A DNA stretch of 64,000 bases from Aurantibacillus circumpalustris (GTDB taxonomy: Bacteria > Bacteroidota > Bacteroidia > B-17B0 > Aurantibacillaceae): the NCBI RefSeq assembly GCF_029625215.1, contig NZ_CP121197.1, forward strand, positions 1,364,001 to 1,428,000. The letters are read 5' to 3'. A program made the position numbers and the translations under genes. The notes beneath the pieces were generated by a model. The model did not search any database. It had not been told where the DNA came from and saw only the letters and a list, made by a program, of their open reading frames with translations. Below, in pieces: positions 1 to 62,154 of this stretch (position 1 is its first letter; every line of letters starts with the position of its first letter).

Positions 1-3000
1 CCACGAGGTTAATTTTTTGCAATTGAGTACCAGGCAATTTGGCAAAATTACTAAACTCATTAGCTATATTTGCCAACGAATCAATTTGTTCAATAATTCC
101 AGCACTCGCTCTTTCAAATTTCTCTTTAAAATCATCGGGATTACTCTTCATGAGCATTTGCAAATACTGCAAATTTAGTTTCATTGGCGTTAAAGGATTC
201 TTTATCTCATGCGCCACTTGTTTTGCCATTTCACGCCAAGCACTTTCACGCTCACTCTGCGCCAACAAATTAGCGCTATTTTCAAGTTTTACTAGCATTT
301 GATTGTATTCGGAAACCAATTTTCCGATTTCGTCATCGCTCTGCCACACAATTTTTTCATTTTGTTTACCCAGAGTCACATTGCTTAATTGTTGCTTAAT
401 TATGCGAAGTGGTTGTGTGATAAAACCAGAAAGAATTAATCCCGTAAGGATGCTGATCACAAACAAAATAACATACACGTTAATTAAAGCACTGATTATG
501 CCTGATAATTCGTTCGCTAGATCGCTTTGTTTAGCAAAATAGGGTAAATTGATAAATCCAATTAACTTTTTGTTCGCATCGAACAATGGTGTGTAAAGTG
601 AAATGTATTTTAATGTTCCGGCCTTATCCGTAACACTCTGTGAAGAAGATCGGTTATTATTAAGCTCCCAAAAGGCCTTTGGATTTACTAAAGAAGCCGC
701 CAACCCATTTTCATACAGTTTTGACTCGCTGGTATTAAACAACTGGCCAGTTTTGTAAAACAAACTTATTGGGGTATTAAAAAGTCTGCTATATTCTTTT
801 AATTTAAGATTAATAAGTTCCTTTTGAGATACATCAAACAATTGTTCGGCTTTAAATTGACTGCTAAGTTCGTTGATAATGATTTGTGTTTTTTCTTCCA
901 ACTGCTTTTTATTATTTCCATCAAACTGCCTACTCACAAGATTTCCGGAAGTAATACCCACCGCCGACATGGCCAACAATAATAAAACAATAATAATTGT
1001 TTGAATTCTTCGCGTTAATGTGGGGCTTGAGAAATGATCTGTAAATACTGCTGAATATACAAGATAAGATAAGTACGTCACCATTGAAAAAAACAATAAG
1101 AGATAGGAATTAAACGTGAAAAAATAGTTCCAGCGCTTGGCTTTTTGACTTATAATTACCTCCGTGTTTTCGTCGGGTTGATAATAGTGATGAATAAAAT
1201 CCTGATTTGATTTCAACAGCGTTATAGAATCCTGAAGTGAAAAGGGATAATTAAAATCCCCGAAGCGGCTTGTAATTTGTTGCGAACGATAAACAGCATG
1301 ACTAAAACTTTTTAATTTCTCAGGCTTCTGCTGCGATTGATCAAGCAACAGATCCGGAAAACTACCCAGTTCCTCAAATTGCTTTGGCTCCATCATCACA
1401 TATAGGCGCCTATCTCCCAAATTTATCTTACCAATGTATTGAACATTTTTTTTGTAGTTTTTTACAAAAAATAGTCCTTCTACAAAAGTAGAATCCGAAT
1501 TTTCACGAATTTGATCAATAAAAAAACCTTCGTTCACGTGTACTGGCTTTTTTACTTCCAGCAGCGGCGAACAGTTTTTATCAAACAAGGAAAACTCCAC
1601 CGTGTATCGATTAAAATACCCACCAAAGTACTTTTGTTTTAATAAAAGTTCGGTTTCCTTTTCAGCAGTTGGAATATCCGCTAAAAAATTAAGCATCCTA
1701 TTAAGCGGCTCGTCCTGTGCCATTCGTCTGGGTATATCAGCAAATTCGTTTTCTAAAATAGCATCCTGTTTGTCACTTAACTTGATTGATAAAATACTCA
1801 AATCTTGCTGCTGGTTTTTCTCTATATAGGTATTCAAAAATTTAGACGTCACCACCGACATAAATAGTATTTGTAGTCCAAGAGCTAAAGCAATTTTAGA
1901 ATTGTAAAATTTTTGCAACAAAAAAAGTAATCCTGCATAAAGTAATAGCCAATAATTTTCAAACAAACCAGTATCTCTATAAAGGGTGTAATGCACAGTA
2001 CAAATGCATAAATACACCACGAAAAATTGCCTGCCATTAAAAACTTGCAATGAGCAATTTATCAGCAAGAACGAAGCGAGTGAGCATACACTCAAAGCTC
2101 CAAGACCAATAAAGACTTCAAATTTTATATTGAAGATGCTCAAAAAATCAAAACTCAAAGTGGAGTTGTTGATTAAACTTACAGCTATTTGGTTAAATTG
2201 ATAAAAGAGTATGAAAATGAAACCCACCATCAACGCTGAATAGACAAATTGCTTTGCCTGTTTTGTTAGCCTGTAAGAATAAAAATGGAATACGGCGGCA
2301 ATAAATAATAAGGTGAAGGCATTCAATAAGATATCTCCCAGGTAGCCATTCATAAAAGATTGGGCATTTCCAAATAACTGAAGATCGTACAACGCTGTTC
2401 GATAGAAAAAAAACGGCCATTTCAAGCCAATCATTAAAAAGCGAATTATCAGGACGCCTACCACAGAAAAACCAGCAAATACATCATTATTACTTCGTTT
2501 TACATTAAGAAGTAATAATAACAGCGACGCTAAATAAGTAGTTAAAAAGAATATAAAAGCAAGGTTATCTCCTGTAGTATTATTAAATTTTTCCTCTCCT
2601 CCTTTAATGGAGAATAAACTGTTACCATCAATTGTAATTCTATGTTCAGCATTTGAGCTTGTATCAACCGTAATTCCCTTTGGAATACCTGTCCAGTCTT
2701 TAAAATCGTTCTTAAGATAATTATTTTGAATCTCGTAATCTGGCTTTACCAGACATAGCGCTAGAGCAGTTTTTTGGCCACTTACCTCTTTAAAGTATAA
2801 ATAGTGCCCATGTGGTAGTTTAATAAATCCGAAAGTCTTTAAAAATATCGCGGAAACTTTAGGCAGCGGTATTTGCGAGTTATTCCAAAAAATAAGACTA
2901 TCATTTTGCCAAAGGTACAGTCCGATTCTCTCATTTGCGTAATACTCTGAAAGCTGCTCCCAATCTGTGCCAACATCTTTTGTAAAAAGTAAGGGAAACG

Positions 3001-3157
3001 CTTTTTTGCAGAGCTCAGCCTTTTTTTCAATCGCTTTTGTAGATTTTACTCCAATTTCCTCGATGGAAAATACAGAATACCGATCAAAAATAATTGCACC
3101 TCCAATAAGAATAAGGCCGAGGATAATTGACGTGAAGTTTACTTTACCACTTTTCAT
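1..3157 (-). CDS. Sensor histidine kinase, multi-TM, HAMP, partial (left edge)
   Basis: Membrane sensor kinase whose C-terminal ATPase domain lies beyond the left edge. My reading runs open from ATG at 3157 to base 1, about 1052 codons. In order: an N-terminal TM helix; a periplasmic segment; a block of about eight TM helices (roughly residues 185-430); a long extracytoplasmic segment; two more helices (about 690-740); a second sensor segment; a TM helix; a HAMP linker; and the HisKA dimerisation helix with WREMAKQVAHEIKNPLTPMK. The phospho-acceptor His is about residue 983 (bases 209-211) and is in frame with the chosen start. The kinase identity is seen directly; the signal sensed is unknown. 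It is divergent from the TMTC-like gene, and no response regulator is visible in the window. Confidence 0.85.
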   Translation of the reverse strand, partial: MKSGKVNFTSIILGLILIGGAIIFDRYSVFSIEEIGVKSTKAIEKKAELCKKAFPLLFTKDVGTDWEQLSEYYANERIGLYLWQNDSLIFWNNSQIPLPKVSAIFLKTFGFIKLPHGHYLYFKEVSGQKTALALCLVKPDYEIQNNYLKNDFKDWTGIPKGITVDTSSNAEHRITIDGNSLFSIKGGEEKFNNTTGDNLAFIFFLTTYLASLLLLLLNVKRSNNDVFAGFSVVGVLIIRFLMIGLKWPFFFYRTALYDLQLFGNAQSFMNGYLGDILLNAFTLLFIAAVFHFYSYRLTKQAKQFVYSALMVGFIFILFYQFNQIAVSLINNSTLSFDFLSIFNIKFEVFIGLGALSVCSLASFLLINCSLQVFNGRQFFVVYLCICTVHYTLYRDTGLFENYWLLLYAGLLFLLQKFYNSKIALALGLQILFMSVVTSKFLNTYIEKNQQQDLSILSIKLSDKQDAILENEFADIPRRMAQDEPLNRMLNFLADIPTAEKETELLLKQKYFGGYFNRYTVEFSLFDKNCSPLLEVKKPVHVNEGFFIDQIRENSDSTFVEGLFFVKNYKKNVQYIGKINLGDRRLYVMMEPKQFEELGSFPDLLLDQSQQKPEKLKSFSHAVYRSQQITSRFGDFNYPFSLQDSITLLKSNQDFIHHYYQPDENTEVIISQKAKRWNYFFTFNSYLLLFFSMVTYLSYLVYSAVFTDHFSSPTLTRRIQTIIIVLLLLAMSAVGITSGNLVSRQFDGNNKKQLEEKTQIIINELSSQFKAEQLFDVSQKELINLKLKEYSRLFNTPISLFYKTGQLFNTSESKLYENGLAASLVNPKAFWELNNNRSSSQSVTDKAGTLKYISLYTPLFDANKKLIGFINLPYFAKQSDLANELSGIISALINVYVILFVISILTGLILSGFITQPLRIIKQQLSNVTLGKQNEKIVWQSDDEIGKLVSEYNQMLVKLENSANLLAQSERESAWREMAKQVAHEIKNPLTPMKLNLQYLQMLMKSNPDDFKEKFERASAGIIEQIDSLANIANEFSNFAKLPGTQLQKINLV

Positions 3158-3276
3158 TTTATGCCGGCTTGATCGTTCATGAAATAAACTCCCAAAAACT
3201 TAGATTACATGAGCAAATTAAGGATAATTCTGGTGAAACAGTAAAAAAAATTCGGGGATCATTATTAATTTGGCTT

Positions 3277-3284
3277 TATATTTG
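3277..3284 (+). promoter_or_regulatory. Bacteroidota -7 promoter box TATATTTG
   Basis: Exact match to TAnnTTTG, 23 nt before the ATG at 3308. No clear TTG -33 element is seen at the usual distance. Inferred promoter of the TMTC-like gene. Confidence 0.55.
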
Positions 3285-3307
3285 TAATTTGCAGATATTT
3301 ATTATTT

Positions 3308-5836
3308 ATGGCACAGGGAAACAAGACACCTTTAAAATCAACATCAAAAGCACCAACGTTAAAAGCTCCAACTTTTGCGCCCTTAAGTGAAACTTTCAAG
3401 TATTTCACATTCTTAAATCACAAGATCGCCTTAATTCTTATAGGCGTTATTGGTTTTACTTTTTATATCACTTCCATTAATGGCGAATATGCGCTAGATG
3501 ACGGAATTATTATTCATCAAAATGATCACGTAATCAAGGGTGTTAGAGGTATTAAAGACATCATGACCCGTGATGCTTACGAGAGTTTTTACCGTCGTAT
3601 GTGTGCAACAGATCAATTAGCCGGGGGTCGTTACCGTCCTTTATCTGTTGTAAGTTTTGCACTTGAACAACAACTTATTGGCAGTTACCGCACAGGTCTT
3701 TACATGAAAGTGGAAGACTCTAATAAAAACGGAGTTCTGGATAAGGACATGGTAAGTTATACTTCTCCTTGCGGCAGACCTGAAACAAATTACGAGTACA
3801 ACGATTATGTTGATTTAAATAATAACGGATTAGCAGAAGGAAACGAGTGCTACAGCTGTTGGGATTTAAACAAAAATTTTAAAAACGAATGGGATGAAGA
3901 TCTTAATGTAGATGGAATTTTTAATGAAATAGACTGTCAGGTATACGGTGCTAAAGTGCGCCATTTTAATAATATTTGGACATTCGCCCTTGGGTGTATG
4001 TTATTATACCTTGTTTTTTCTCGTTATTTTTTTCGTACCAATCAAGACTTGGCATTTCTCGCAGCTTTACTGTTTACGATGCACCCGATACACTCAGAAG
4101 CCATCGCTAATGTGAAAAGCCGTGATGAGATTTTCTCATTAATCTTCCTCTCGCTCACCTTCTTTTATACATTCAAATATCTGGAGACCAAAAAGAACAA
4201 AGATTTATTTTGGTCTTCGCTCATGTTCTTGCTCGCATTGTTATCAAAAGAATACGCTGTTACCTTGTTAATATTGGTACCATTGGCTGTGTACACATTT
4301 ACAGAAAATGATTTTGATGTTAAAACGTTTTTCGATACAAAAGAATTTAAACAAACACTTTATGTGGGTCTTGCATTTGTATTTTGCGCTGTGATGATGT
4401 TGTATTTAAAGCGTGACTTTGATATGCATGCACAGCCCGGAGCTAAGCCAATTCGCTCATTCTGGGTATTCCCTTTCTTATATATTTTGGTTGGAATTTT
4501 TATGATGGGATCCAATAAGAAAAACAATTTCCATAAACTCTTGAGTTGGTTCTACTTTGTGATGTTGTTTTATTTGGCAATGCGTTTGGTTGCTGTTAAA
4601 CTAAAACCAGGTGTTCCAGACACGGAAATTTTAAACAATCCATACCTTTTAGCAAATGGCGAAGAACGTTTCGCTACTAAAGGCTTTGTGTTATTAAAAT
4701 ACCTATGGCTACAAATTTTCCCTGCTACATTGTCTTCCGATTATTCATATAATACTATTGAGTACCGTCATTTTACAAGTTGGGACTTTTTATTGTCTAT
4801 TATAATACACGTTGGAATGGTGGTTGCAGCCGTTCATTATACTTTAAAGAAACATATTTTAGGTTTTGCTTTAATGACTTACATTGTATTTGCGTTAATG
4901 ATTGGAAACGTTTTAATGGACATTGGTGCAACAATGGGTGAACGTTTGATCTTTCACTCGTCTATCGGATTTTGTATTGCCATTGCTTACTTTATGCTGA
5001 AGGGCTTAGATAAATTATCAGTGATTGCATTTAACATGAGAAGAATAGCACTTGTGTGCGTTGTTTTAGTAATCACTTTCTTATTTGGCTGCAAAACCTG
5101 GGAACGTAACTGGGATTGGAAAAATGATGTAACACTCTTCTTAAAAGACGTAAAAACCATGCCACACTCTGTACTTGTTTTAGGAAATGCAGGTGCCCGT
5201 TGGGTTGATTTGGCCGATACAAAAGAAGTTACAGGTGTTCAGGTTGTTGGGCAGGACTCAACGCGTTTTAATGATTATAACGGTACTTTAGTTATTACTG
5301 ACGAAGAGGTAAAGACAGGTGGCTATAAAAATAAACGCGAAGCAGCTCTTTTTAAAGGAATTGCATTCTTAAAGCATGCCACTGAGTTACATCCACGTTA
5401 CGTAAATGGATATTTAAATTTAGGATTAGCTTACTTTAAATTGAGAAAAGATTTCGAAGCACTTTACTATTGGAAAAATGCCGAACGTTTGTATCCAAAT
5501 AATCCTTACTTGAGAAATTATTATCAGGTATACTCAAACGATCTAAAAAACAGAGGGTCTGGAGCATTTAACCGAGGACGTATGGATTCAGCAGCCATTG
5601 CTTATAACATGTGGACTTTATTGGTGCCTTATGACAAAGAAGCTTGGTATAATTTAGGTGGCGCTTACTTTAATCAAGGGAAATTTGGTTTAGCTAAAAA
5701 AAGTTGGGATAGAGCTATTCAAATTGATCCAAATTACGCAGAGGTTAAAAAGGTATTACCTATGATTACACCTCAAATGTTAGGGCAGGCTCCGGTTACG
5801 ATGGCCCCTCAATCACAGCCAATTAAAAATAATTAG
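3308..5836 (+). CDS. TMTC-like membrane protein with TPR repeats and EF-hand-like insert
   Basis: Integral membrane protein of 842 aa resembling the DUF1736/TMTC family, which includes O-mannosyltransferase-like proteins. A TM helix at about 38-56 is followed by the typical luminal loop with ALDDGIIIHQND, then TPR C-terminal to about ten TM helices, with the conserved MHPIHSEAIANVKSRDE segment in between. The C-terminal 200 residues contain TPR-type helices, for example YVNGYLNLGLAYFKLRKD and EAWYNLGGAYFNQGKF. Odd: an insert of about 80 residues (133-212), where family members normally run straight into the second helix, carries four calcium-loop-like motifs at 137-148, 169-180, 186-197 and 198-209. 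A protein-glycosylation role is inferred from the family only. Strong promoter box upstream and terminator downstream suggest a single-gene unit. Confidence 0.8.
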   Translation: MAQGNKTPLKSTSKAPTLKAPTFAPLSETFKYFTFLNHKIALILIGVIGFTFYITSINGEYALDDGIIIHQNDHVIKGVRGIKDIMTRDAYESFYRRMCATDQLAGGRYRPLSVVSFALEQQLIGSYRTGLYMKVEDSNKNGVLDKDMVSYTSPCGRPETNYEYNDYVDLNNNGLAEGNECYSCWDLNKNFKNEWDEDLNVDGIFNEIDCQVYGAKVRHFNNIWTFALGCMLLYLVFSRYFFRTNQDLAFLAALLFTMHPIHSEAIANVKSRDEIFSLIFLSLTFFYTFKYLETKKNKDLFWSSLMFLLALLSKEYAVTLLILVPLAVYTFTENDFDVKTFFDTKEFKQTLYVGLAFVFCAVMMLYLKRDFDMHAQPGAKPIRSFWVFPFLYILVGIFMMGSNKKNNFHKLLSWFYFVMLFYLAMRLVAVKLKPGVPDTEILNNPYLLANGEERFATKGFVLLKYLWLQIFPATLSSDYSYNTIEYRHFTSWDFLLSIIIHVGMVVAAVHYTLKKHILGFALMTYIVFALMIGNVLMDIGATMGERLIFHSSIGFCIAIAYFMLKGLDKLSVIAFNMRRIALVCVVLVITFLFGCKTWERNWDWKNDVTLFLKDVKTMPHSVLVLGNAGARWVDLADTKEVTGVQVVGQDSTRFNDYNGTLVITDEEVKTGGYKNKREAALFKGIAFLKHATELHPRYVNGYLNLGLAYFKLRKDFEALYYWKNAERLYPNNPYLRNYYQVYSNDLKNRGSGAFNRGRMDSAAIAYNMWTLLVPYDKEAWYNLGGAYFNQGKFGLAKKSWDRAIQIDPNYAEVKKVLPMITPQMLGQAPVTMAPQSQPIKNN

Positions 5837-5858
5837 GACCGATAAAAAACTTTTAAGA

Positions 5859-5890
5859 AAAACCATCTGTTGAACGACAGATGGTTTTTT
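5859..5890 (+). terminator. Rho-independent terminator
   Basis: A 12-bp perfect stem AAAACCATCTGT/ACAGATGGTTTT with a 6-nt loop, followed by a T run. It sits 22 nt after the TMTC-like stop codon and ends that transcript. Confidence 0.85.
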
Positions 5891-6030
5891 GCTTTTGTAG
5901 CATCTTACAGAAACTGCTTCGGGTTTTATTGCTATCATGCGCTCTAATTTGCGGTGACGAGTTCAAGTGCACCGTCATTACGTGGCAAAAGAGTGCAAAG
6001 ACCGAACCAGTAAGAATTTCTGCTAGCCAC

Positions 6031-6054
6031 AAAAAAACCACCCGAAGGTGGTTT
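6031..6054 (-). terminator. Terminator of sucD
   Basis: Stem AAACCACC/GGTGGTTT around a CGAA loop. Read on the minus strand it is followed by a run of T from the A tract at 6031-6037. It lies 25 nt beyond the sucD stop. The 140 bases between this and the previous terminator hold no convincing gene. Confidence 0.8.
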
Positions 6055-6078
6055 GCATTTTTGAAATAAATTTAATTT

Positions 6079-6969
6079 TTATGCAGATACTTTTTGTCCT
6101 TTTAAAACAGCAGCCATCGTTTTACCAATTTCGGCAGGACTTTCGCACACATGTATGCCGCACTCGCGCATGATTTGCATTTTTGCTTGCGCTGTATCTT
6201 CCGCACCACCAACGATAGCGCCAGCGTGCCCCATTGTACGTCCTTTAGGAGCAGTTTGACCTGCAATAAAACCAACTACTGGTTTTTTATTTCCATTTGC
6301 TTTTATCCAACGCGCGGCTTCTGCTTCGTAGCTTCCACCAATTTCACCAATCATTACAATCGCTTCTGTTTCAGGATCGTTCATCAATAATTCAACCGCA
6401 TCTTTAGTCGGTGTTCCAATGATCGGATCTCCGCCAATTCCAATGGCAGTAGTTATTCCCATTCCAGCTTTCACAATCTGATCAGCCGCTTCATATGTTA
6501 ATGTTCCGCTTTTGGAAACAATCCCAATTTTACCTTTTTTAAACACAAAACCTGGCATAATACCAACCTTAGCTTCCCCGGCAGTAATAACACCAGGACA
6601 ATTAGGTCCGATTAAACGGCAAGCTTTTCCTTTTAAATATTCTTTTACATAAATCATATCCTTAACAGGAATTCCTTCTGTAATACAAACAATCACTTTA
6701 ATACCAGCTTCAGCGGCTTCCATAATCGCATCTGCCGCAAACGCAGCCGGCACAAAAATAATAGACACATCAGCACCTGCCTTTTGAACCGCTTCTGAAA
6801 CAGTGTTAAATACCGGACGTTCTAAGTGAGTGGTACCGCCTTTTCCAGGAGTTACTCCGCCAACTACATTGGTGCCATATTCAATCATTTGTGTTGCATG
6901 AAACGTACCTTCACCACCTGTAAAGCCTTGTACTATTACCTTAGAATCTTTGTTTACTAATACTGACAT
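6079..6969 (-). CDS. sucD: Succinate--CoA ligase (ADP-forming) alpha subunit
   Basis: Alpha subunit of succinyl-CoA synthetase, which interconverts succinyl-CoA and succinate with ATP formation in the TCA cycle. The 296-aa product matches the usual family length. The CoA-binding glycine motif [10 protein letters not shown] is at 15-24 and the phospho-histidine is in GHAGAIVGG (His248). An upstream in-frame codon at 7050 would add 27 unrelated residues; I chose 6969 because the family starts near [11 protein letters not shown] and a TAAATTTG promoter box lies between the two codons. No sucC is next to it, so the beta subunit must be encoded elsewhere. Confidence 0.95.
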
Positions 6970-49179: not shown

Positions 49180-49187
49180 TATTTTTG
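49180..49187 (+). promoter_or_regulatory. Promoter box TATTTTTG, leaderless arrangement
   Basis: Exact TAnnTTTG, 3 nt before ATG 49191 and 6 nt before ATG 49194. It excludes the upstream TTG at 49185, which lies inside the box. Confidence 0.55.
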
Positions 49188-49190
49188 TAC

Positions 49191-51455
49191 ATGATGTCTA
49201 AACTCAGATTAGTCTTTTTTTCTCTCATTTTTTTTAAAGTGTCTACTGCGCAATTAGCTTTAGATCGTGACACCATAACCGTAATTGAAAACGCTTATGT
49301 TTTAAAAATGCCTTGGGCAAATGGTCTTAATTTTGCAAATGTTTCGAATATAGATTTGAATGGCGATGGAAAAAAAGACATTGTAGCTTTTGATCGATTA
49401 AATCCTTATGGTGTTGGACGTTTTAGGTGTTTTATTCATTCCGGCAATGTGGGCGAAATTAAATACAAGGAGAATTGGTATTTAAGCTATTTATTTCCTC
49501 AGGTTGCCAATTGGGCGGTTTTTAAAGATTATAATTGTGATGGTAAGGAAGATCTTTTTTGTTCTACTAATTCTGGCATTAAAGTTTATAAAAATACTAC
49601 CTCCAATGGCGTTCTTAGTTTTCAGTTAGTTAAACCTTTAATTTATACAGATTACAATCCTGGTGGAAATCCACTAGTAAGTAATTTATACGCTAGTTCG
49701 ATTGGAGTGCCAGGCATTGTTGATATTGATAATGATGGTGATCTCGACATTCTCACCTTTGCCCCGCAAGGAATTTTTATTGAGCTCCATAAAAATATGT
49801 CGGTAGAAAAAAATTTCGGTTGTGATAGTTTAGTCTTTGAAAACACTGATAATTGCTGGGGTAAGTTAAGCGAAAGTAATTGCGCGGTAAACTTTAATGC
49901 ATGTGGATCGAATAGAAACAAAAACATAGATGAGTTACTTTCACAATCAAAAACCTATCATGCAGGTTCATGTTTAGCTTGTTTGGATAGCGATGGTGAT
50001 AATGACATTGATCTTATAATGGGTGATATTTCCTGTAATACGATAGAGTACGTTCACAACACTGGCGTTGCAACGCTTGCAGATTTTACCGACAGTACAA
50101 AACTATATCCTAACTATCCAAATAAAAACAGCACCACTGTTGCTAAAATGAATAGTTTTCCGTGTGCTTACTACGTCGATGTGAACGCCGATAATAAAAA
50201 AGATCTTATTGTAACACCAAATTCTTATGGCACCGAAAACTATAAAAGTGTTTGGTTATATAAAAACACGAGCCTTACAAACACCGTTAATTTTCAATTC
50301 GAAAAAAATAATTTTTTGCAAGATGAAATGATTGAGGTTGGCCAAAATTCTTTCCCGGTTGTTTTTGATTGTGATTCTGACGGAAAAAAAGATCTCCTTA
50401 TTGGAAACTATGGTTATTACAATGGAAGTTCGTTAAACAGTAAACTTACCTTGTATAAAAATATTGGAACAACAAGTCAACCTACCTATTCACTCATTAC
50501 ACGTGATTACGCCAGCCTAAGCACTATTGTACTCAATAATAATTTGCATTTGAATAATGCAGTTCCTACGGTTGGAGACATAGATTCGGATGGGGATGTT
50601 GATATAATTATTGGTACTTCAAGCGGACAAGTACATTGGCTGGAAAATACGGCTGGTACAAATAACCCTTGTAATTTTTCCATATTTCATGAAAATCCTT
50701 TTTTAATTACTACTCCTTCTTCCGCGGCAGCCCCTCAATTATTTGATTTGGATAACGATTCCCATCTTGATTTATTAATAGGAATGCAAAACGGTAAAAT
50801 TGCCTGGTACCGAAATGTAGGAACTTCTTCAGTGCCTTCTTTTTCGCTCGTTACAAGTAGTTTGGGAGGTGTAGATGTAAAGGGCGATCCAAATGTGTTT
50901 GGCTATGAGGGCTATGCTACACCTTTTTTTTACAAAGAAAATGGAGTTACCAATTTGCTGGTTGGATCTTTTAGCGGATCAATAGCACAATACATAGTGC
51001 CAAGTATAGTCACAAATTCTTTTACCCTTATTACGAAAAATGTAAATGGATTTAATGAAGGAAGTCAGTCAACTGTTTGCTACGAAGACGTGAACGGTGA
51101 TGCCAAACGTGATCTTATTATTGGAAATAGCGGCGGGGGATTAAATTTCTTTTCATCAAAAGCGCTTACCATTGGTGTTGATGAATTAAATACAAATAGT
51201 TTGACTTCTAAAATTTCTTTTTTCCCAAATCCTACAAAAGGCAAGGTGACAATAAATATGGATGTAGTGAATTTTCAAAAAGGAACACTTCTTATTCATG
51301 ATGTTCTTGGAAAGGAAATAATAAACTCCTCGCTTAACGCTACTTCTGAAACGTTTGATTTATCCAATGTAGACAACGGGGTTTATTTTATTACTATTCT
51401 TATTACCTCAAATTTTCAAACAGAGCGCATTACTAAAAAAATCCTTAAAGATTAA
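49191..51455 (+). CDS. FG-GAP/VCBS-repeat protein with T9SS type A sorting domain
   Basis: 754-aa secreted beta-propeller-like protein. A signal peptide ends near STAQ (about 20). Nine calcium-binding repeats are visible, including DLNGDGKKDIV, DYNCDGKEDLF, DIDNDGDLDIL, DSDGDNDIDLI, DCDSDGKKDLLIG, DIDSDGDVDIIIG and DVNGDAKRDLIIG. The last 80 residues (ISFFPNPTKGKVTINM, LLIHDVLGKEI, DNGVYFITI) are a T9SS type A sorting domain. Likely a surface or extracellular adhesive/structural protein. The lipoprotein gene follows without a gap. Confidence 0.92.
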   Translation: MMSKLRLVFFSLIFFKVSTAQLALDRDTITVIENAYVLKMPWANGLNFANVSNIDLNGDGKKDIVAFDRLNPYGVGRFRCFIHSGNVGEIKYKENWYLSYLFPQVANWAVFKDYNCDGKEDLFCSTNSGIKVYKNTTSNGVLSFQLVKPLIYTDYNPGGNPLVSNLYASSIGVPGIVDIDNDGDLDILTFAPQGIFIELHKNMSVEKNFGCDSLVFENTDNCWGKLSESNCAVNFNACGSNRNKNIDELLSQSKTYHAGSCLACLDSDGDNDIDLIMGDISCNTIEYVHNTGVATLADFTDSTKLYPNYPNKNSTTVAKMNSFPCAYYVDVNADNKKDLIVTPNSYGTENYKSVWLYKNTSLTNTVNFQFEKNNFLQDEMIEVGQNSFPVVFDCDSDGKKDLLIGNYGYYNGSSLNSKLTLYKNIGTTSQPTYSLITRDYASLSTIVLNNNLHLNNAVPTVGDIDSDGDVDIIIGTSSGQVHWLENTAGTNNPCNFSIFHENPFLITTPSSAAAPQLFDLDNDSHLDLLIGMQNGKIAWYRNVGTSSVPSFSLVTSSLGGVDVKGDPNVFGYEGYATPFFYKENGVTNLLVGSFSGSIAQYIVPSIVTNSFTLITKNVNGFNEGSQSTVCYEDVNGDAKRDLIIGNSGGGLNFFSSKALTIGVDELNTNSLTSKISFFPNPTKGKVTINMDVVNFQKGTLLIHDVLGKEIINSSLNATSETFDLSNVDNGVYFITILITSNFQTERITKKILKD

Positions 51456-55512: not shown

Positions 55513-57423
55513 TCACTCCAACTTCACAAACCTTCCACGCCAAACGCTTTCAGCGTTTTGTGCTTGAATAAAATATACGCCTGATTTTAGTTCGGAGGTG
55601 TTAATTTGATTCTGCCCTTTGTTGAGATTACTTTGAAGTAATAACTTACCATTCAAATCAAAGATCATTAAAGTAGATGAAGCAATTGCCTCAACCGAAA
55701 CTAGATCAGAAAAAGGATTTGGAAACACACGAAAATCACCCTTGTTTTCAAATGCTGAAATTCCCAAACAAGGGTTCACCTCAACAGTAAATGTTTTTGA
55801 TAAAGTACAACCATTTAAGGTGCCGGACACTGAATACGGTGTTGTTGCAGTGGGGTTTAACGCCACGGTGCTTGCCGTGGAGTTTGTACTCCACAAATAA
55901 GTATTTGCTCCGCTTACAGTAAACGTATTTTTTTCTCCTTTACACAAAGCAAAATTACCCGCCACATTTACGGTTGGACCAGGTGTGCTAATTGTAATTA
56001 CTTTTTTTAGGGTATCGTTAGTGCAGGCACCATATAAAATAAGTGATACTGTATACGTGCCGGTAGTTGAATAGGTATGCACAGGATTTCCTAACGTAGA
56101 TGAGTTTGCCGCACCTGCTGCAGGCTCTCCAAAATCCCAGGCATAACTGCTTGGCGAGTAAGGCGTACTTGTGCAACCGCTGCTAAAAGTGGGCACTGGC
56201 GGTACTGAAAAAGAACTGGTTTGGCAGGCAAGGCTGTTGGTAAATGGTGTGGGTAAGGGTCTCGTATAAGTGTTGATGAAATTGGGAAGACCTAAAGCGC
56301 AAAATTTCGGGGCAACGTTTTGTCCGTTTAACGTAAAACCCATAGCCACACCACTAGCATTAGGATTGTGAATAACACTTAAACTAAATTGCTGGCCAGG
56401 ACCAGAAGCTGTAAGATAGAGTTTGCCATTGATTGCGCGTTGAATGGAACCAAGATATAATCCATTTGTATTTATCGAATATTGAGATGCTATGATGGCT
56501 TGATTGTTTGCAGCGCAAATATCCCACTGATAAAGTCCGGTAACTGTTGCGCTAATCATTGGTCCAGCCGCACCATATAACTTAGAGCCATCGGGTGAAA
56601 ACTCAACTCCATACGCACCACTATTGGGAATATTGGTGCCACTTAAAAGCGTGAGAGAATTAGATACCGTGCCATTAGCTGCATTAAAATCAAATAAATG
56701 AAACCCGCCACTACCTAAACTTTGTGGAATAGAGGTTGTTGCTGATGCCATGGCCAACTTTTTGCCATCCGGTGAAACTTTAAGTTGCCCGATACTAATT
56801 AAACCAGTACCCGCCATTGATTCCCCTATAGCGGAAACTACAGGAGAACTAATCACTCCGTTACTGTTAAGCAAATAAGCCCTGAATTCATTGCTCCCAT
56901 AATGATGGCTTACCACCCAAACATCTTTGCCATTACAATGTCTCACCGCTACTTGCCTTTCACAGCTTGGGTCATAAAGATGTGAATTTTTCACAGTAAC
57001 AGATCCCAAACCTGCTGCCAGACTCATATCTACTATTGAATAATTTGCGCCATTGGTACTATTTTGTAACGAGACTGTAAAAACATAATATAGCGAGTCG
57101 CTTCCAGGTTTTTTGACTATTAAAGCTGACTGAGTGCTTGATCCTTGACCAAATAAACCTAGACCGTTGGCCATGACTGAATGGGTACTGTTAAAAACGC
57201 TAATTCCATCTGTATAAAATAATAAATTTCCTACATTGTCAGATATGGTAGCACAACCTTCTACGGTATTTAACACACCACTGGTGAGTATGGTGGGAGG
57301 GTTGGTACTAAAATCAAGTCCAGCTTTTGCCCCGAAATACCATTTACTAAATTCTAACTGTGCGGGGGAGTATAGGCTGCAGAACAGCACTAAAAGTAGA
57401 TAGATTTTTCTTGTGATTTTCAT
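55513..57423 (-). CDS. Beta-propeller/PKD protein with T9SS type A sorting domain
   Basis: 636-aa secreted protein. A signal peptide ends at YSPAQ (about 22). Residues about 25-385 are propeller-like with blades such as ISIGQLKVSPDGKKLAMAS and YGVEFSPDGSKLYGAAG. A PKD domain at about 405-480 has YAWDFGEPA and YSTTGTYTVSLIL; an Ig-like domain at about 483-555 has LCKGEKNTFTVSGANTYLW. The C-terminus FRVFPNPFSDLVSVEA, LMIFDLNGKLLL and SGVYFIQA is a T9SS type A sorting domain. Located between a repeat region and the giant 1513-aa protein. Confidence 0.9.
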   Translation of the reverse strand: MKITRKIYLLLVLFCSLYSPAQLEFSKWYFGAKAGLDFSTNPPTILTSGVLNTVEGCATISDNVGNLLFYTDGISVFNSTHSVMANGLGLFGQGSSTQSALIVKKPGSDSLYYVFTVSLQNSTNGANYSIVDMSLAAGLGSVTVKNSHLYDPSCERQVAVRHCNGKDVWVVSHHYGSNEFRAYLLNSNGVISSPVVSAIGESMAGTGLISIGQLKVSPDGKKLAMASATTSIPQSLGSGGFHLFDFNAANGTVSNSLTLLSGTNIPNSGAYGVEFSPDGSKLYGAAGPMISATVTGLYQWDICAANNQAIIASQYSINTNGLYLGSIQRAINGKLYLTASGPGQQFSLSVIHNPNASGVAMGFTLNGQNVAPKFCALGLPNFINTYTRPLPTPFTNSLACQTSSFSVPPVPTFSSGCTSTPYSPSSYAWDFGEPAAGAANSSTLGNPVHTYSTTGTYTVSLILYGACTNDTLKKVITISTPGPTVNVAGNFALCKGEKNTFTVSGANTYLWSTNSTASTVALNPTATTPYSVSGTLNGCTLSKTFTVEVNPCLGISAFENKGDFRVFPNPFSDLVSVEAIASSTLMIFDLNGKLLLQSNLNKGQNQINTSELKSGVYFIQAQNAESVWRGRFVKLE

Positions 57424-57612: not shown

Positions 57613-60600
57613 TTAATCCGTTTTTACCAGTTTTCTATGAATCGTTTTACCGCTATCACTGCTGATAGTAATGATGTAGATAGATGCTGCCAGTTCCGAA
57701 ACATCTAAACTATTTTCGTTACCACTCAAATTTGATTTGACGAGTATTTGTTTACCAGCCAAATCAAAAACGCTCACCGAAAGATTCTCCGCACTGCCTT
57801 CACTTACAATCGTTAAGCGCCCATTTGTAGGGTTTGGGAAAATAGATAATTTATTTTCATCCAGCTCATCTTGGATCGGCGCTATAGTTGAAGAATTTGC
57901 TAAGCGCCAGCTTGGTGGTGGAACAAAAAAACTAGTGGCCGGGCAATCGGGTATAGGATTGTTATTCAAAAAAATGCTTGGTGGTGCTCCGGACATATCA
58001 TAAGCATCAGATGGATTTGGAAAACTAGTATTCAAAACAGGATTTGTACTAGGTAGATTTTGTACATATAAAGGGGAAAGACTTGCAGTACTGTTTTCGC
58101 AATAGGTTTGATTTTGTGCTGTATTTTGTCCCCAGTTACTCCCGCACCACGGGGTATTTAGCCAAATATTTTGATTGGCTTGGTTTTGATTACCTTGAGG
58201 TCCAATTACTGCGCTGTTCGTAAGGGCTAAACCTGCATAATTACTGCACATGGTATTGTTTTTCCATTCGGTTGCAGTGTTTGAGCCATCGAAATGGTAA
58301 CCATAGTAGGTTTCTGTTTCGGTGTTACACTCTACTACTGGGGTTGGATACCCTGGGTCTTGGTTATTATAAAAATAAAGTGCGGAAACGGTGCCGTTTG
58401 CCGCAGGCCATATTTGTGTAGCGGTAACGGTGTTCATAAACACATTCATTGCACCATTGTGATTTTCTAAAGCAACTCCATATTGAGGCAGGGAATAGGT
58501 AGCATCGTCTTCTAACAATATTTCGTTGGTAGATACCCAGGTGGGTAAATGTTCCATGCCATTTATGCGTATACCTCTAAAGGCTCGGTTAATTTTATTA
58601 CTTGTTATGAAACACCCCGTGCCGGTGGGGTTTCCGGTATTCCAACCCGTGAGATTTGGTGTTTCCAATGTAATTGCGTCATTCATGTACTCGCTTGTAT
58701 TTGCTGAAGTAGAGCTGTATGGTGCACTGCTATTCACTTCTGCACCAAAATAATTTTCATTAAATCCAAAACCAATAGGATAAATTCCATAGCTAAGCGA
58801 AAAAATGTTATAAGGATACGTCGTTAATGGGGTTCGCATAATAATTCCATTTCTTATATTATTAAATTCACTATTAAACACAGTAAAATTAAAGCGGTTA
58901 GATTCATAGTTCACACCAACATCTCCCTGAGTTGTTTGCAAAGGCAAATTTGCTGTTAATACTGAATGCGTGCTTCTGAAAGTTGAACCTGTAACCCAGC
59001 ATTCAAATACATTATGAGCATTTATACCCGTAACACAATCCCAAAAATAATTTCCACCAGTTCGCAAATCTAAAGTAGCATTCATAAGTGAACTGTCGCT
59101 TATTTCATGGTTGATACCTACGCCACCAAACCAGCCCGATGGGGTATTGTAGTACTGTAAGTTTTGAAAAACATTGAACATTGTTCTTAGATTCCCTTCG
59201 TTAATATCAATACCATTACCAATACCATCAAACAGATTAAAATCGTTTGCGATAAAGGCGGGCTGGGTGAAGCCGAACTCGACATTGGGAGAGACTGTGC
59301 TACCACTTGCGACAGTGTTACCAGTTGGATCACCAAAGTTTTCAATTTGTATGCCTATATGGGCCGGTTGGCTGGTGTAAGGTTGTTTTAAATTAACTTG
59401 CGCAAAATTAGTATTCAAGTAACCATAAGGCGGTGCAAGGCCTCCGACGCTCGCGGTTGGCCATCTTAAAGCACCAGGTGTGTTGGTGTGGTCGTTGTTT
59501 GGCCAGGTAAGAACTGTTGACGGGAAAGTAGTATAGGTCATGGTTTTACTTGAAAACACGCAACCACTAATGCCAAGAGACAATGTAGTTAAGTTAGGCG
59601 CAGCATTACTAATTCTAATGCCAATGTAATTTCTATTAAAAATTATACGAGATATTTCTATGGGGGGCACTGAACCTGAATTTGTCGCTGAAACTTGATC
59701 TAAGTCAATGGCAACTATGGCGTCTTCTATCATGCTATTAGATGTTCGTGTGTTGACTGCTGTTATCTGGCCACCATCTTGAACAATAATTCCTTGCCAC
59801 ATTTTAATGCCACAACCGAAAAGGTGTGTATGGTCAAGATCAAGTTGCATCCCTGAGGGCACTTTTATTGACACACCTTCAGTAATCCATACCTCTGCAT
59901 TTTGAAAAAAGGTAGAACTTGTGAGTGTTATCGCGCTACTCAAGACATACGAATTGTTAGCGTATGTACCTCCAATTCCCGAGCTTGGCAGCTGTATCAT
60001 ACCAGCGGTTGGTTGCGCACAACAATTTGAAGCAATACTAACCGCCATGGTTGCACTTGATGGGCAGCCTAGTGAAAATGAACTAGCACTAACCGTATAA
60101 ACTGTGGCAACAGAAGGACAAACACTTACCAAAGAACCAGTAAGCGGGGGACTTGTTTGCCAAGTATAGCTTACAGGTGATGTAAGTGTGGATGTTGCTA
60201 CAACAGTAGTGCAAAGACCTGCATTTGTGCAAAGTACTACGTCTGGTGCGACTATGGGAATAGGAGAGCCAAGAGGAACGGTACCTGTGTATTGTGCAAC
60301 ACATGAATTTGTAGGCCCAGAACCCAACACCGTATATGAAACAGCTACGCTTGAGTTAAAAGTTATAGTGGGAGTACCTGTAAAAGTCTGCACTGGACTT
60401 CCAATATACCAGGTGTAGTTAAGCGCCCCGCCGGCAGTTAACGTATTTGTTATACCAGGACATATTGCCGGTGGTGAAACTGTTATAACAGGTGCGGCCA
60501 ATGTACTCACTTTAACTGTTGATGTCCCTACACATGGACCTGATGATCCTTTTACTGTATAAGTTGTACTAGCGGTAGGTGTTACCACTATAGAGCTTCC

Positions 60601-62154
60601 ACTTCCGATACCTAACCAGTTGTATGAAGAAGCGCCTGATGCGGTGAGAGTAGATGATCCACCAGAGCATACTACCGATGGATTTGCAACGGATGTAACA
60701 GTTGGATTTGGTATTATGCTTAAAGTGGTTAAAGCGGTATTTGTACAGCCCTGGATACTTTGGACGAGAGCAGTGTATGTTGTCGTAGAAGCTGTGCCAA
60801 TTGAAATTGGTGTATTAGAGAAAACCTGACTACTGGCTGGCGGGAAATTTAGAATGAAATAATGCCAACCATTACCCGTAACAGTTAGGTTGGCGCTACC
60901 TGCCTGACATAATGCAGTTGGTGAGACGACAGCACTGACTGTTGGAGTAAGGAAACTTTTTACAAGCACAGTTTTTGTGTAAACGCAACCTGTACCCCCT
61001 CCAATAGCTGTATATACAAAGTTGTTTACTGTAGTTGGAGATACTAGAACCGTGTTGGTAGTTGCAATTTGCGCACCTCCAGGAGCATTCCATGTGTAGT
61101 TAACAGCGCCGCTGACCGTTAGTAAAACCGATTTACCAGTACAAACTGTTGGGGTAACGGGTGTAATAGTTAATGGTGGAGGTACAGTGACACTATAACC
61201 GGCAGCGGAAATACAATCGTAGCCATGACTTGTAAGAGTTAAGATACCAACTGAAACGATGCCAGGTATTGTTTGAGAAACAACACTAAGCAGGCTATTT
61301 GTGGATGGTGGGCCTCCCCAACCACTTGGCTTACTCCAAGAATAGGTAGTTGCCACATTTGTTGGTATGCCAACAGATAATGCAGTTGCGGCTGTATATT
61401 GTGCTGATGTGGGAGTACATAAAAGAGTCGGTCCTGAAATGGAAGAATACACCATATAATTAAAAAGCCCGACGGCTTCAACCTTTAAGCCGGCATATCG
61501 ACATTCGGGTGCTAATCCAGGAATCATCTTTACCCGCACAATAATTTCATTTGAACCGCCTTTCCAATTTGTACACCAATTAAATCTTACAGCGTTTATA
61601 CGTTGAAGAAGAGGATAGTTAGAGCCAATAATATTTGTTGTATAAGCTGGAACACCATTAACCGTTATGCTATGTATCCAATCACTGGCAAAGAGCTGCC
61701 AATTAATGCTCAATACCGGGTTCGGTGCTAAGGTAAAAGTTAGTTTAAAATACAAATCTGGCGGTGGTAAAGTCGGAGAACAAGAGTATCCTGCAAGTGC
61801 CCCGGAGCAGATAAGATTAGGAGCGGTTATCCAGCTCGGGGCCCCACCAGTGCCATTAGGTGACCAAGCAACACAATTTGTACTTGTAATTGGTGGTGCT
61901 GGTGCAATAACGGCAGGCACACCTGTAACAGTGCTATTATTAACTGTCCAACGAGGGTCGTTACCAGAAAGAATGGAAGTCATCGCTGTAGTAGTGGCTA
62001 CGTTTACTCCTGTATTACCTAATAAAGTGATACTTGGGTGCGGCGGTGCTACATTTTGAGAATGCAAGTCGCCACAAATAACTAGAGAAAAAATAAGGCA
62101 GAAAAAGATAGTGAGTGCTTTTACTGGTTTACCTAAAAATTGTGTTTGTTTCAT
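57613..62154 (-). CDS. Giant secreted Ig-like/beta-helix protein, T9SS type A
   Basis: 1513-aa surface or secreted protein. A signal peptide ends near LHSQ (about 33). About five PKD/Ig-like repeats of about 75 residues run from 330 to 720 (for example NPSVVCSGGSSTLTASGASS and PPAICPGITNTLTAGGALNY). Residues about 735-1350 look like a parallel beta-helix (SSTFFQNAEVWITEGVSIKV, ISRIIFNRNYIGIRISNAA, GIDINEGNLRTMFNVFQNL). The C-terminus LSIFPNPTNGRLTIVSE, VSVFDLAGKQIL and AASIYIITI is a T9SS type A domain. A repeat-bearing adhesin or a carbohydrate-acting protein are both possible; no catalytic motif was identified. Confidence 0.88.
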   Translation of the reverse strand: MKQTQFLGKPVKALTIFFCLIFSLVICGDLHSQNVAPPHPSITLLGNTGVNVATTTAMTSILSGNDPRWTVNNSTVTGVPAVIAPAPPITSTNCVAWSPNGTGGAPSWITAPNLICSGALAGYSCSPTLPPPDLYFKLTFTLAPNPVLSINWQLFASDWIHSITVNGVPAYTTNIIGSNYPLLQRINAVRFNWCTNWKGGSNEIIVRVKMIPGLAPECRYAGLKVEAVGLFNYMVYSSISGPTLLCTPTSAQYTAATALSVGIPTNVATTYSWSKPSGWGGPPSTNSLLSVVSQTIPGIVSVGILTLTSHGYDCISAAGYSVTVPPPLTITPVTPTVCTGKSVLLTVSGAVNYTWNAPGGAQIATTNTVLVSPTTVNNFVYTAIGGGTGCVYTKTVLVKSFLTPTVSAVVSPTALCQAGSANLTVTGNGWHYFILNFPPASSQVFSNTPISIGTASTTTYTALVQSIQGCTNTALTTLSIIPNPTVTSVANPSVVCSGGSSTLTASGASSYNWLGIGSGSSIVVTPTASTTYTVKGSSGPCVGTSTVKVSTLAAPVITVSPPAICPGITNTLTAGGALNYTWYIGSPVQTFTGTPTITFNSSVAVSYTVLGSGPTNSCVAQYTGTVPLGSPIPIVAPDVVLCTNAGLCTTVVATSTLTSPVSYTWQTSPPLTGSLVSVCPSVATVYTVSASSFSLGCPSSATMAVSIASNCCAQPTAGMIQLPSSGIGGTYANNSYVLSSAITLTSSTFFQNAEVWITEGVSIKVPSGMQLDLDHTHLFGCGIKMWQGIIVQDGGQITAVNTRTSNSMIEDAIVAIDLDQVSATNSGSVPPIEISRIIFNRNYIGIRISNAAPNLTTLSLGISGCVFSSKTMTYTTFPSTVLTWPNNDHTNTPGALRWPTASVGGLAPPYGYLNTNFAQVNLKQPYTSQPAHIGIQIENFGDPTGNTVASGSTVSPNVEFGFTQPAFIANDFNLFDGIGNGIDINEGNLRTMFNVFQNLQYYNTPSGWFGGVGINHEISDSSLMNATLDLRTGGNYFWDCVTGINAHNVFECWVTGSTFRSTHSVLTANLPLQTTQGDVGVNYESNRFNFTVFNSEFNNIRNGIIMRTPLTTYPYNIFSLSYGIYPIGFGFNENYFGAEVNSSAPYSSTSANTSEYMNDAITLETPNLTGWNTGNPTGTGCFITSNKINRAFRGIRINGMEHLPTWVSTNEILLEDDATYSLPQYGVALENHNGAMNVFMNTVTATQIWPAANGTVSALYFYNNQDPGYPTPVVECNTETETYYGYHFDGSNTATEWKNNTMCSNYAGLALTNSAVIGPQGNQNQANQNIWLNTPWCGSNWGQNTAQNQTYCENSTASLSPLYVQNLPSTNPVLNTSFPNPSDAYDMSGAPPSIFLNNNPIPDCPATSFFVPPPSWRLANSSTIAPIQDELDENKLSIFPNPTNGRLTIVSEGSAENLSVSVFDLAGKQILVKSNLSGNENSLDVSELAASIYIITISSDSGKTIHRKLVKTD

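Follow-up and report, generated by a model that had tools for sequence, protein, structure and literature searches.

The locus and its TMTC/PMT-like protein

The window, the whole 64,000-nucleotide stretch of Aurantibacillus circumpalustris DNA analysed here, contains an ORF for a TMTC/PMT-like membrane protein of the GT-C type (Table 1). A gene for a large histidine kinase (HisKA; 2-3157, minus strand) is divergent from the enzyme gene, and the commonest flanking ORF cluster of the fetched loci, present at 53 of 73, resembles by eye the same histidine kinase. Elsewhere in the window, the plus-strand ORF at 49185-51455 encodes a protein with FG-GAP repeats, DxDxDG-type motifs and, at its C-terminus, a secretion-system sorting domain; the same sorting domain occurs in the proteins at 55513-57423 and 57613-62154.

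Table 1 Features of the enzyme gene in the window. Residue numbers refer to the encoded protein.
Feature	Position	Strand	Basis
TMTC/PMT-like GT-C membrane protein with C-terminal TPR repeats, 842 residues	3308..5836	+	ORF, Pfam, fold match
Putative first membrane helix, residues 38-58	3419..3481	+	Predicted structure; membrane placement from the GT-C match
DD motif D64, D65 in the first outer loop (TMTC motif M1)	3497..3502	+	72/74 members (2 gaps), 18/18 cassette-free relatives
C99, proposed staple of the first outer loop to the insert	3602..3604	+	Co-occurs with C155
YRP 109-111, end of TMTC motif M2	3632..3640	+	73/74 members, 1 gap
Insert, residues 133-212	3704..3943	+	Absent from 18/19 usable distant relatives, core only in one
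Calcium-type loop 1 (137-148), position 12 without a ligand (incomplete)	3716..3751	+	D137, N139, N141 49/49 and D145 50/50 with the module
C155, proposed partner of C99	3770..3772	+	Co-occurrence
E163-Y-N165	3794..3802	+	E 50/50, N 50/50 of members with module A
Calcium-type loop 2 (169-180), complete	3812..3847	+	Ligand pattern, family alignment
C181, without clear partner	3848..3850	+	Cys in 50/52 rows having a residue there
Core cassette C184-C210, two abutting calcium-type loops between invariant cysteines	3857..3937	+	C184, W185, C210 74/74; recurs in unrelated proteins
Calcium-type loop 3 (186-197), complete	3863..3898	+	Ligand pattern, family alignment
Calcium-type loop 4 (198-209), complete	3899..3934	+	D198, N200, D202, G203, E207, D209 each 74/74
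Putative second membrane helix, residues 215-241	3950..4030	+	Predicted structure
DUF1736-like stretch 443-486; D478-Y479 taken as counterpart of TMTC motif M5 (DW)	4634..4765	+	Pfam, alignment, excerpts of PMC7801869
TPR helices, residues 676-819	5333..5764	+	Pfam, predicted structure

The sequence-only reading took the protein for a TMTC-like membrane glycosyltransferase, and as a likeness this is supported by domain matches, fold and motifs M1-M5 and M7, in part or whole. In a Pfam search with the whole protein, PMT_2 (PF13231) scores 27.6 bits, over its curated cut-off of 26.1, whereas TMTC_DUF1736 (PF08409) scores 20.4 bits, under its curated cut-off of 27; its 24.6 bits in the genome search are also under. 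The C-terminal TPRs are matched by TPR_2 with 50 bits (cut-off 27). The full-protein model, from 65 sequences, has a mean pLDDT of 80.6 and a pTM of 0.77. Its best structural matches are OST-complex chains, which we take to be STT3, and Pmt1-Pmt2/Pmt4, at Z 16-17, a modest margin over 14, which the tool gives as the usual best Z when a helical model has no clear counterpart. The GT-C matches with Z of 16 or more align 331-380 residues with an rmsd of 4.7-5.3. The shared sequence motifs add to the support for this assignment.

With the TMTC active-site motifs M1-M7 taken as defined in the excerpts of PMC7801869, the residues conserved in the family are D64-D65, YRP 109-111, R272-D273-E274 (RD[ED], for M3), K314-E315 (the KE of M4), D478-Y479 (DY, for M5) and E545/F549 (the E and F of M7, ExxxF). 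R546 of M7 is found in 64 of 74 members and the T of M4 in 11 of 74. The start of M2 differs, AGGRYRP here and SHKSYRP in TMTC; in the published TMTC models this motif contacts mannose, the donor sugar (PMC7801869). Most of the TMTC motif residues are also retained by 18 relatives that lack the insert's core cassette. Given the GT-C fold and the conserved TMTC motifs, it is plausible that the protein is an active glycosyltransferase.

Anatomy of the insert

The insert sits in the first outer loop, after the YRP segment and before membrane helix 2. This loop is extracytoplasmic in GT-C enzymes. The calcium-loop insert described by the sequence-only reading is real: the interval given for it translates exactly to residues 133-212, and four 12-residue loops lie at the places proposed (Table 1). 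Ligand-type residues occupy positions 1, 3, 5, 9, and 12 in loops 2, 3, and 4, whereas loop 1 carries M148 at position 12, a position that is acidic in 1 of 43 non-redundant members having the module. Loop 2 thus has the full ligand set credited to it, but it is not alone in this, as loops 3 and 4 are also complete. E163 and N165 may provide loop 1 with additional ligands.

Loops 3 and 4 adjoin directly at E197-D198, with zero residues between them, and together they form the core between two invariant cysteines, with the pattern CWDxNxNxxxDxxEDxNxDGxxNxxDC. Residues 184-210 fit the cassette as we define it, C-W-D-x-N-x-N-x3-[DE]-x2-E-D-x-N-x-D-G-x5-D-C. Loops 1 and 2 (137-180) constitute module A, which is present in 50 family members; the other 24 have the core alone.

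Conservation of the ligand positions

The family set comprises 74 sequences, obtained as ORFs of at least 690 aa from 107 matches after fragments and near-identical copies were dropped. The whole-protein search covered 60 genomes. In the peptide search, one of the six peptides (NKNFKNEW) lies within the insert, so the set from that search leans to insert-bearing members. Of 69 reference sequences, 65 were used; inserts came from 64 of those 65 (L048 is truncated), and 48 of the 64 inserts were used. Entropy and register statistics were computed on the 57 of 74 members left by a 90% identity cut.

The core is present in all 74 members. D186 and E197 are each found in 73 of 74; position 188 is N in 71 and D in 3, position 190 is N in 64, D in 9, and T in 1, and position 194 is D, E, or Q. 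F205 is retained in 65 of 74. In module A, D169 and N171 are invariant (50/50), and Q predominates at position 9 of loop 2 (30 of 45 non-redundant members). Loop 3 is damaged in L059, which retains loop 4 and the cysteines, and loop 2 is broken in L138, indicating that not every loop is essential.

The mean entropy is 0.39 bits at the 20 ligand positions and 1.35 bits in the rest of the insert minus the cysteines (57 members; permutation p 5e-5 for the difference). D, N, or E occupies 91% of the ligand positions in register, compared with 18-30% one residue off and 33% three off; the 52-55% at two off are what the 1-3-5 spacing would give. Three or more strict loops arise in 0.02% of 20,000 shuffles of the insert's own residues. 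The D/N ligand positions, whose lack of conservation in homologues would have refuted the sequence-only reading, are therefore mostly near-invariant and conserved in a register-specific manner. Outside the ligand positions, the conservation of the insert is not special: by block, the entropy is 1.18 for module A, 1.19 for the TPRs, 0.80 for the core, and 0.45 for the rest of the first loop.

Cysteines and putative disulfides

The four cysteines listed by the sequence-only reading (155, 181, 184, and 210) are confirmed, and we add C99, which lies outside the insert. C99 and C155 occur together in 35 members; 38 members have neither, and one sequence breaks off before position 99. Both residues are confined to one clade, that of the window, so their co-occurrence represents a single evolutionary event and is unreplicated. 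The pattern is suggestive of a C99-C155 disulfide, which may pin the insert to the loop holding the active-site motifs. We do not take two disulfides formed within the insert as the simplest pairing of its four cysteines, because C155 goes with C99 and because C184 and C210 occur in members without C155 and C181. A C184-C210 disulfide would close the core. C181 has no clear partner and is left over as an odd cysteine.

Structural models and relation to known calcium loops

In the ion-free models of the full protein and of the isolated insert, the loops are accompanied by short beta bridges and few helical turns, which answers only in part the structural check proposed with the sequence-only reading. 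In neither model does a helix precede any loop, and the turns that follow are of only 3-5 residues. The isolated insert model has a mean pLDDT of 82, with single-residue beta bridges at residues 144 and 176 (partners not reported), which are position 8 of loops 1 and 2. A bridge at position 8 of both loops is found in EF-loop pairs. In the full model, residues 191-210 are less confident (pLDDT 60-67). Neither Foldseek (E <= 0.001) nor VIA-align (Z >= 2) finds a solved counterpart of the isolated insert, which is neither proof of a new fold nor of its absence.

By ligand spacing, loops 2, 3, and 4 agree with the EF-hand loop (12 residues, ligands at 1, 3, 5, 9, and 12), and to this extent the earlier description as EF-hand-like stands. 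An EF-hand proper was rejected: the models lack helix-loop-helix, loops 3 and 4 abut, and Pfam gives no EF-hand match at E up to 10 for the protein or the insert, in a search whose HMMER filters drop most weak matches. The two sub-threshold Pfam matches of the insert, Ntox17 and DUF6620 (E 0.15 each), were taken as chance. The insert fits the Dx[DN]xDG calcium loops found outside EF-hands, which in the excerpts of PMC3123361 include contexts without regular secondary structure on one side.

In profile comparisons, the matches to solved structures are weak. Against solved structures, profile A2 finds only dockerin type I loops, six of them and weak (best 2y3n, E 0.0044). Profile A3, whose alignment has four assumed end residues, ranks a stretch of metalloprotease Mcp02 first (E 0.062), with dockerins at 0.39-0.59. 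A composed consensus of the cassette matches Pfam Dockerin_1 (PF00404) at E 0.11 with 13.1 bits, under the cut-off of 22.9; the window protein and the insert themselves give no Pfam match to Dockerin_1.

Distribution and history of the insert

Twenty more distant relatives were fetched, of which 19 are usable, L112 being a fragment. The cassette is absent from 18 of the 19, and L106 carries a core cassette. The calcium-type insert is thus absent from most relatives, as the sequence-only reading had it. Its statement that known family members run straight from this loop into the helix holds for 15 of the 18 cassette-free relatives but not for the others. In L107 the loop is longer by about 10 residues; L109 and L110 each carry, where the cassette would be, an unrelated insert of about 45-50 residues that contains no calcium loops. 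Therefore, the first outer loop is a tolerant insertion site.

In a tree of 46 sequences with the insert columns excluded, homologues that bear the cassette group in a single clade, whose support is printed as 1.00 after re-rooting and whose sisters are cassette-free. This suggests that the core was probably gained once in the lineage. Module A is patchy over the tree, compatible with ancestral presence and losses or with several gains; in core-only members the whole insert amounts to about 40 residues. No direct DNA repeats of at least 14 bases are present at 3650-3980, so this stretch gives no sign of recent duplication.

The strong core-profile matches in the window's genome are the enzyme gene and a 75%-identical paralogue, and two more matches appear at E 0.7. 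Module A is detected in 9 of 295 genomes, 7 of them from the window's genus (itself included) and 2 with weak matches elsewhere. One locus, L042, contains two tandem copies of the enzyme gene (1174-3726 and 3974-6526), each encoding the core and a short form of module A.

The core cassette in unrelated proteins

The core profile has matches in 47 of the 395 genomes sampled from the class; 30 loci (one earlier) were obtained for these, and cassettes were read in the fetched loci. The proteins at L149-L158 are not TMTC-like: L150-L155, L157, and L158 are collagen-like, L156 has short Gly-x-y flanks, and in L149 the cassette lies inside a DUF6340 protein (PF19867, E 6.7e-57), an apparent second case of grafting into an existing domain. 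Judged by eye from their N-termini, these proteins are apparently secreted or lipidated. A scan of viral contigs yields four further cassettes, whose proteins are either collagen-like or short and lipoprotein-like. The cassettes of L162, L163, and L164, which lie in short lipoprotein-like and collagen-like proteins on contigs filed as viral, have one more cysteine (GDGxCD).

In a phylum-wide draw of 395 genomes, the whole profile is matched only in the window's own genome. In 13 other genomes the matches fall within positions 3-26 only, so that neither cysteine column is aligned. No Pfam or NCBIfam model exceeds its cut-off on the cassette in the proteins scanned, and the cassette is undescribed as far as searches of open-licence text show. 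Phage records contain no relative of the 40-residue insert piece or of the composed cassette, and plasmids none of the whole protein or of the composed cassette. The recurrence of the core is consistent with a portable, self-contained structural unit.

Discussion

The reading we favour, with a probability of about 55%, is that the insert forms an appendage, made rigid by calcium and disulfides, on the active site's outer, acceptor side. The protein would be an inner-membrane glycosyltransferase of the GT-C type, similar to TMTC and PMT, whose TPRs lie in the periplasm. The insert would be a portable calcium cassette, exposed outside the cytoplasm and grafted in after the YRP segment, ahead of membrane helix 2. 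Its core, C184-C210, would consist of two abutting EF-type loops closed by the C184-C210 disulfide. The second loop pair (137-180) would be added in many members, and the C99-C155 disulfide would pin the insert to the active-site loop in the window's clade. With calcium available outside the cytoplasm, and with the disulfides, the appendage would be rigid and would shape either the part of the active site that faces the acceptor or the entrance for a substrate presented by the TPRs. We infer calcium binding; enzyme activity, the pairing of the cysteines, the periplasmic placement and the effect on the acceptor are likewise predictions.

The sequence-only reading proposed calcium- or metal-gated control, in which binding and release of Ca2+ would switch the insert between states and turn transfer on or off. 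The insert does lie within the loop carrying the DD and YRP motifs, cooperativity could arise from the presence of four loops, and the incomplete loop 1 could be a weaker, responsive site. However, Asn-rich calcium loops suggest weak binding, and the affinity of these Asn-rich loops is probably low. The disulfides, if formed, would limit movement, and the insert of core-only members is short. The same core is found in collagen-like and lipoprotein-like proteins, where gating is unexpected, and its reuse beside collagen-like repeats speaks for a structural role and against a switch. The gate finds no specific support here and seems to us quite unlikely; a structural calcium site fits better, although regulation is possible.

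Alternatively, the cassette could serve for docking, binding a partner or substrate through its surface much as dockerin binds cohesin, and calcium would only keep it in shape. This would agree with the dockerin matches of profile A2 and of the composed consensus, all weak or sub-cut-off, and with the conservation of core positions that are not calcium ligands (W185 and E207 in 74 of 74, F205 in most). Against it, Mcp02 outranks the dockerins with profile A3, the models have no helix of dockerin length after the loops, and no partner gene is identified, and we regard docking as possible but on the unlikely side. An acidic, Asn-rich spacer without metal binding, its loop pattern a product of composition bias, would explain the net charge of -12 and the 23 D/N in 80 residues, and would suit a site that tolerates the unrelated inserts of L109 and L110. 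Composition bias is rejected by register shift, permutation, and shuffling alike, ligand conservation being register-specific, and the same cassette appears in unrelated proteins; the spacer is thus highly improbable.

A bolder reading, which we advance as a speculation and think rather unlikely, is that a calcium cassette grafted by a GT-C active site lets extracellular calcium (and oxidation) control acceptor access. If true, it would mean a calcium-dependent bacterial protein-glycosylation enzyme, with an undescribed, portable, disulfide-closed double calcium loop that has grown by a second module and been stapled by a new disulfide. The published TMTC analysis, in its excerpts, still argued enzyme status from sequence and models (PMC7801869). 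The open-licence papers searched contain no GT-C enzyme with a calcium cassette in the first outer loop. Members without the insert, with the core only, and with the core plus the second module provide a natural series for loop function. In addition, a model of the cassette could flag calcium-type cassettes in other extracytoplasmic Bacteroidota proteins.

Comparison with known systems

The protein resembles the TMTC1-4 / PMT family (PF08409, PF13231) in its GT-C fold, in carrying DD and YRP on the first outer loop, in the KE motif, in a D-Y that stands for the D-W motif of the DUF1736 loop, and in the C-terminal TPRs. It differs in that PF08409 is matched below cut-off, in the insert of about 80 residues with calcium-type loops in the first outer loop, and in part of the M2 motif.

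The insert shares with the Dx[DN]xDG loops of PMC3123361 the ligand spacing, with Asp or Asn at positions 1, 3, and 5 and an acid at position 12. The abutting, cysteine-bracketed pair is not met among the arrangements in the excerpts of that work. Loop 4 (DLNxDGxxNxxD) is similar by profile to dockerin type I loops, but the models here have no loop-helix repeat of dockerin length, no linker separates loops 3 and 4, and nothing points to a cohesin. The CWD...DC cassettes of collagen-like and lipoprotein-like proteins share the pattern of the core, over 27-28 residues. Those cassettes are mostly located beside Gly-x-y repeats or in small proteins, whereas the core described here is embedded in a polytopic enzyme, with a second module added to it.
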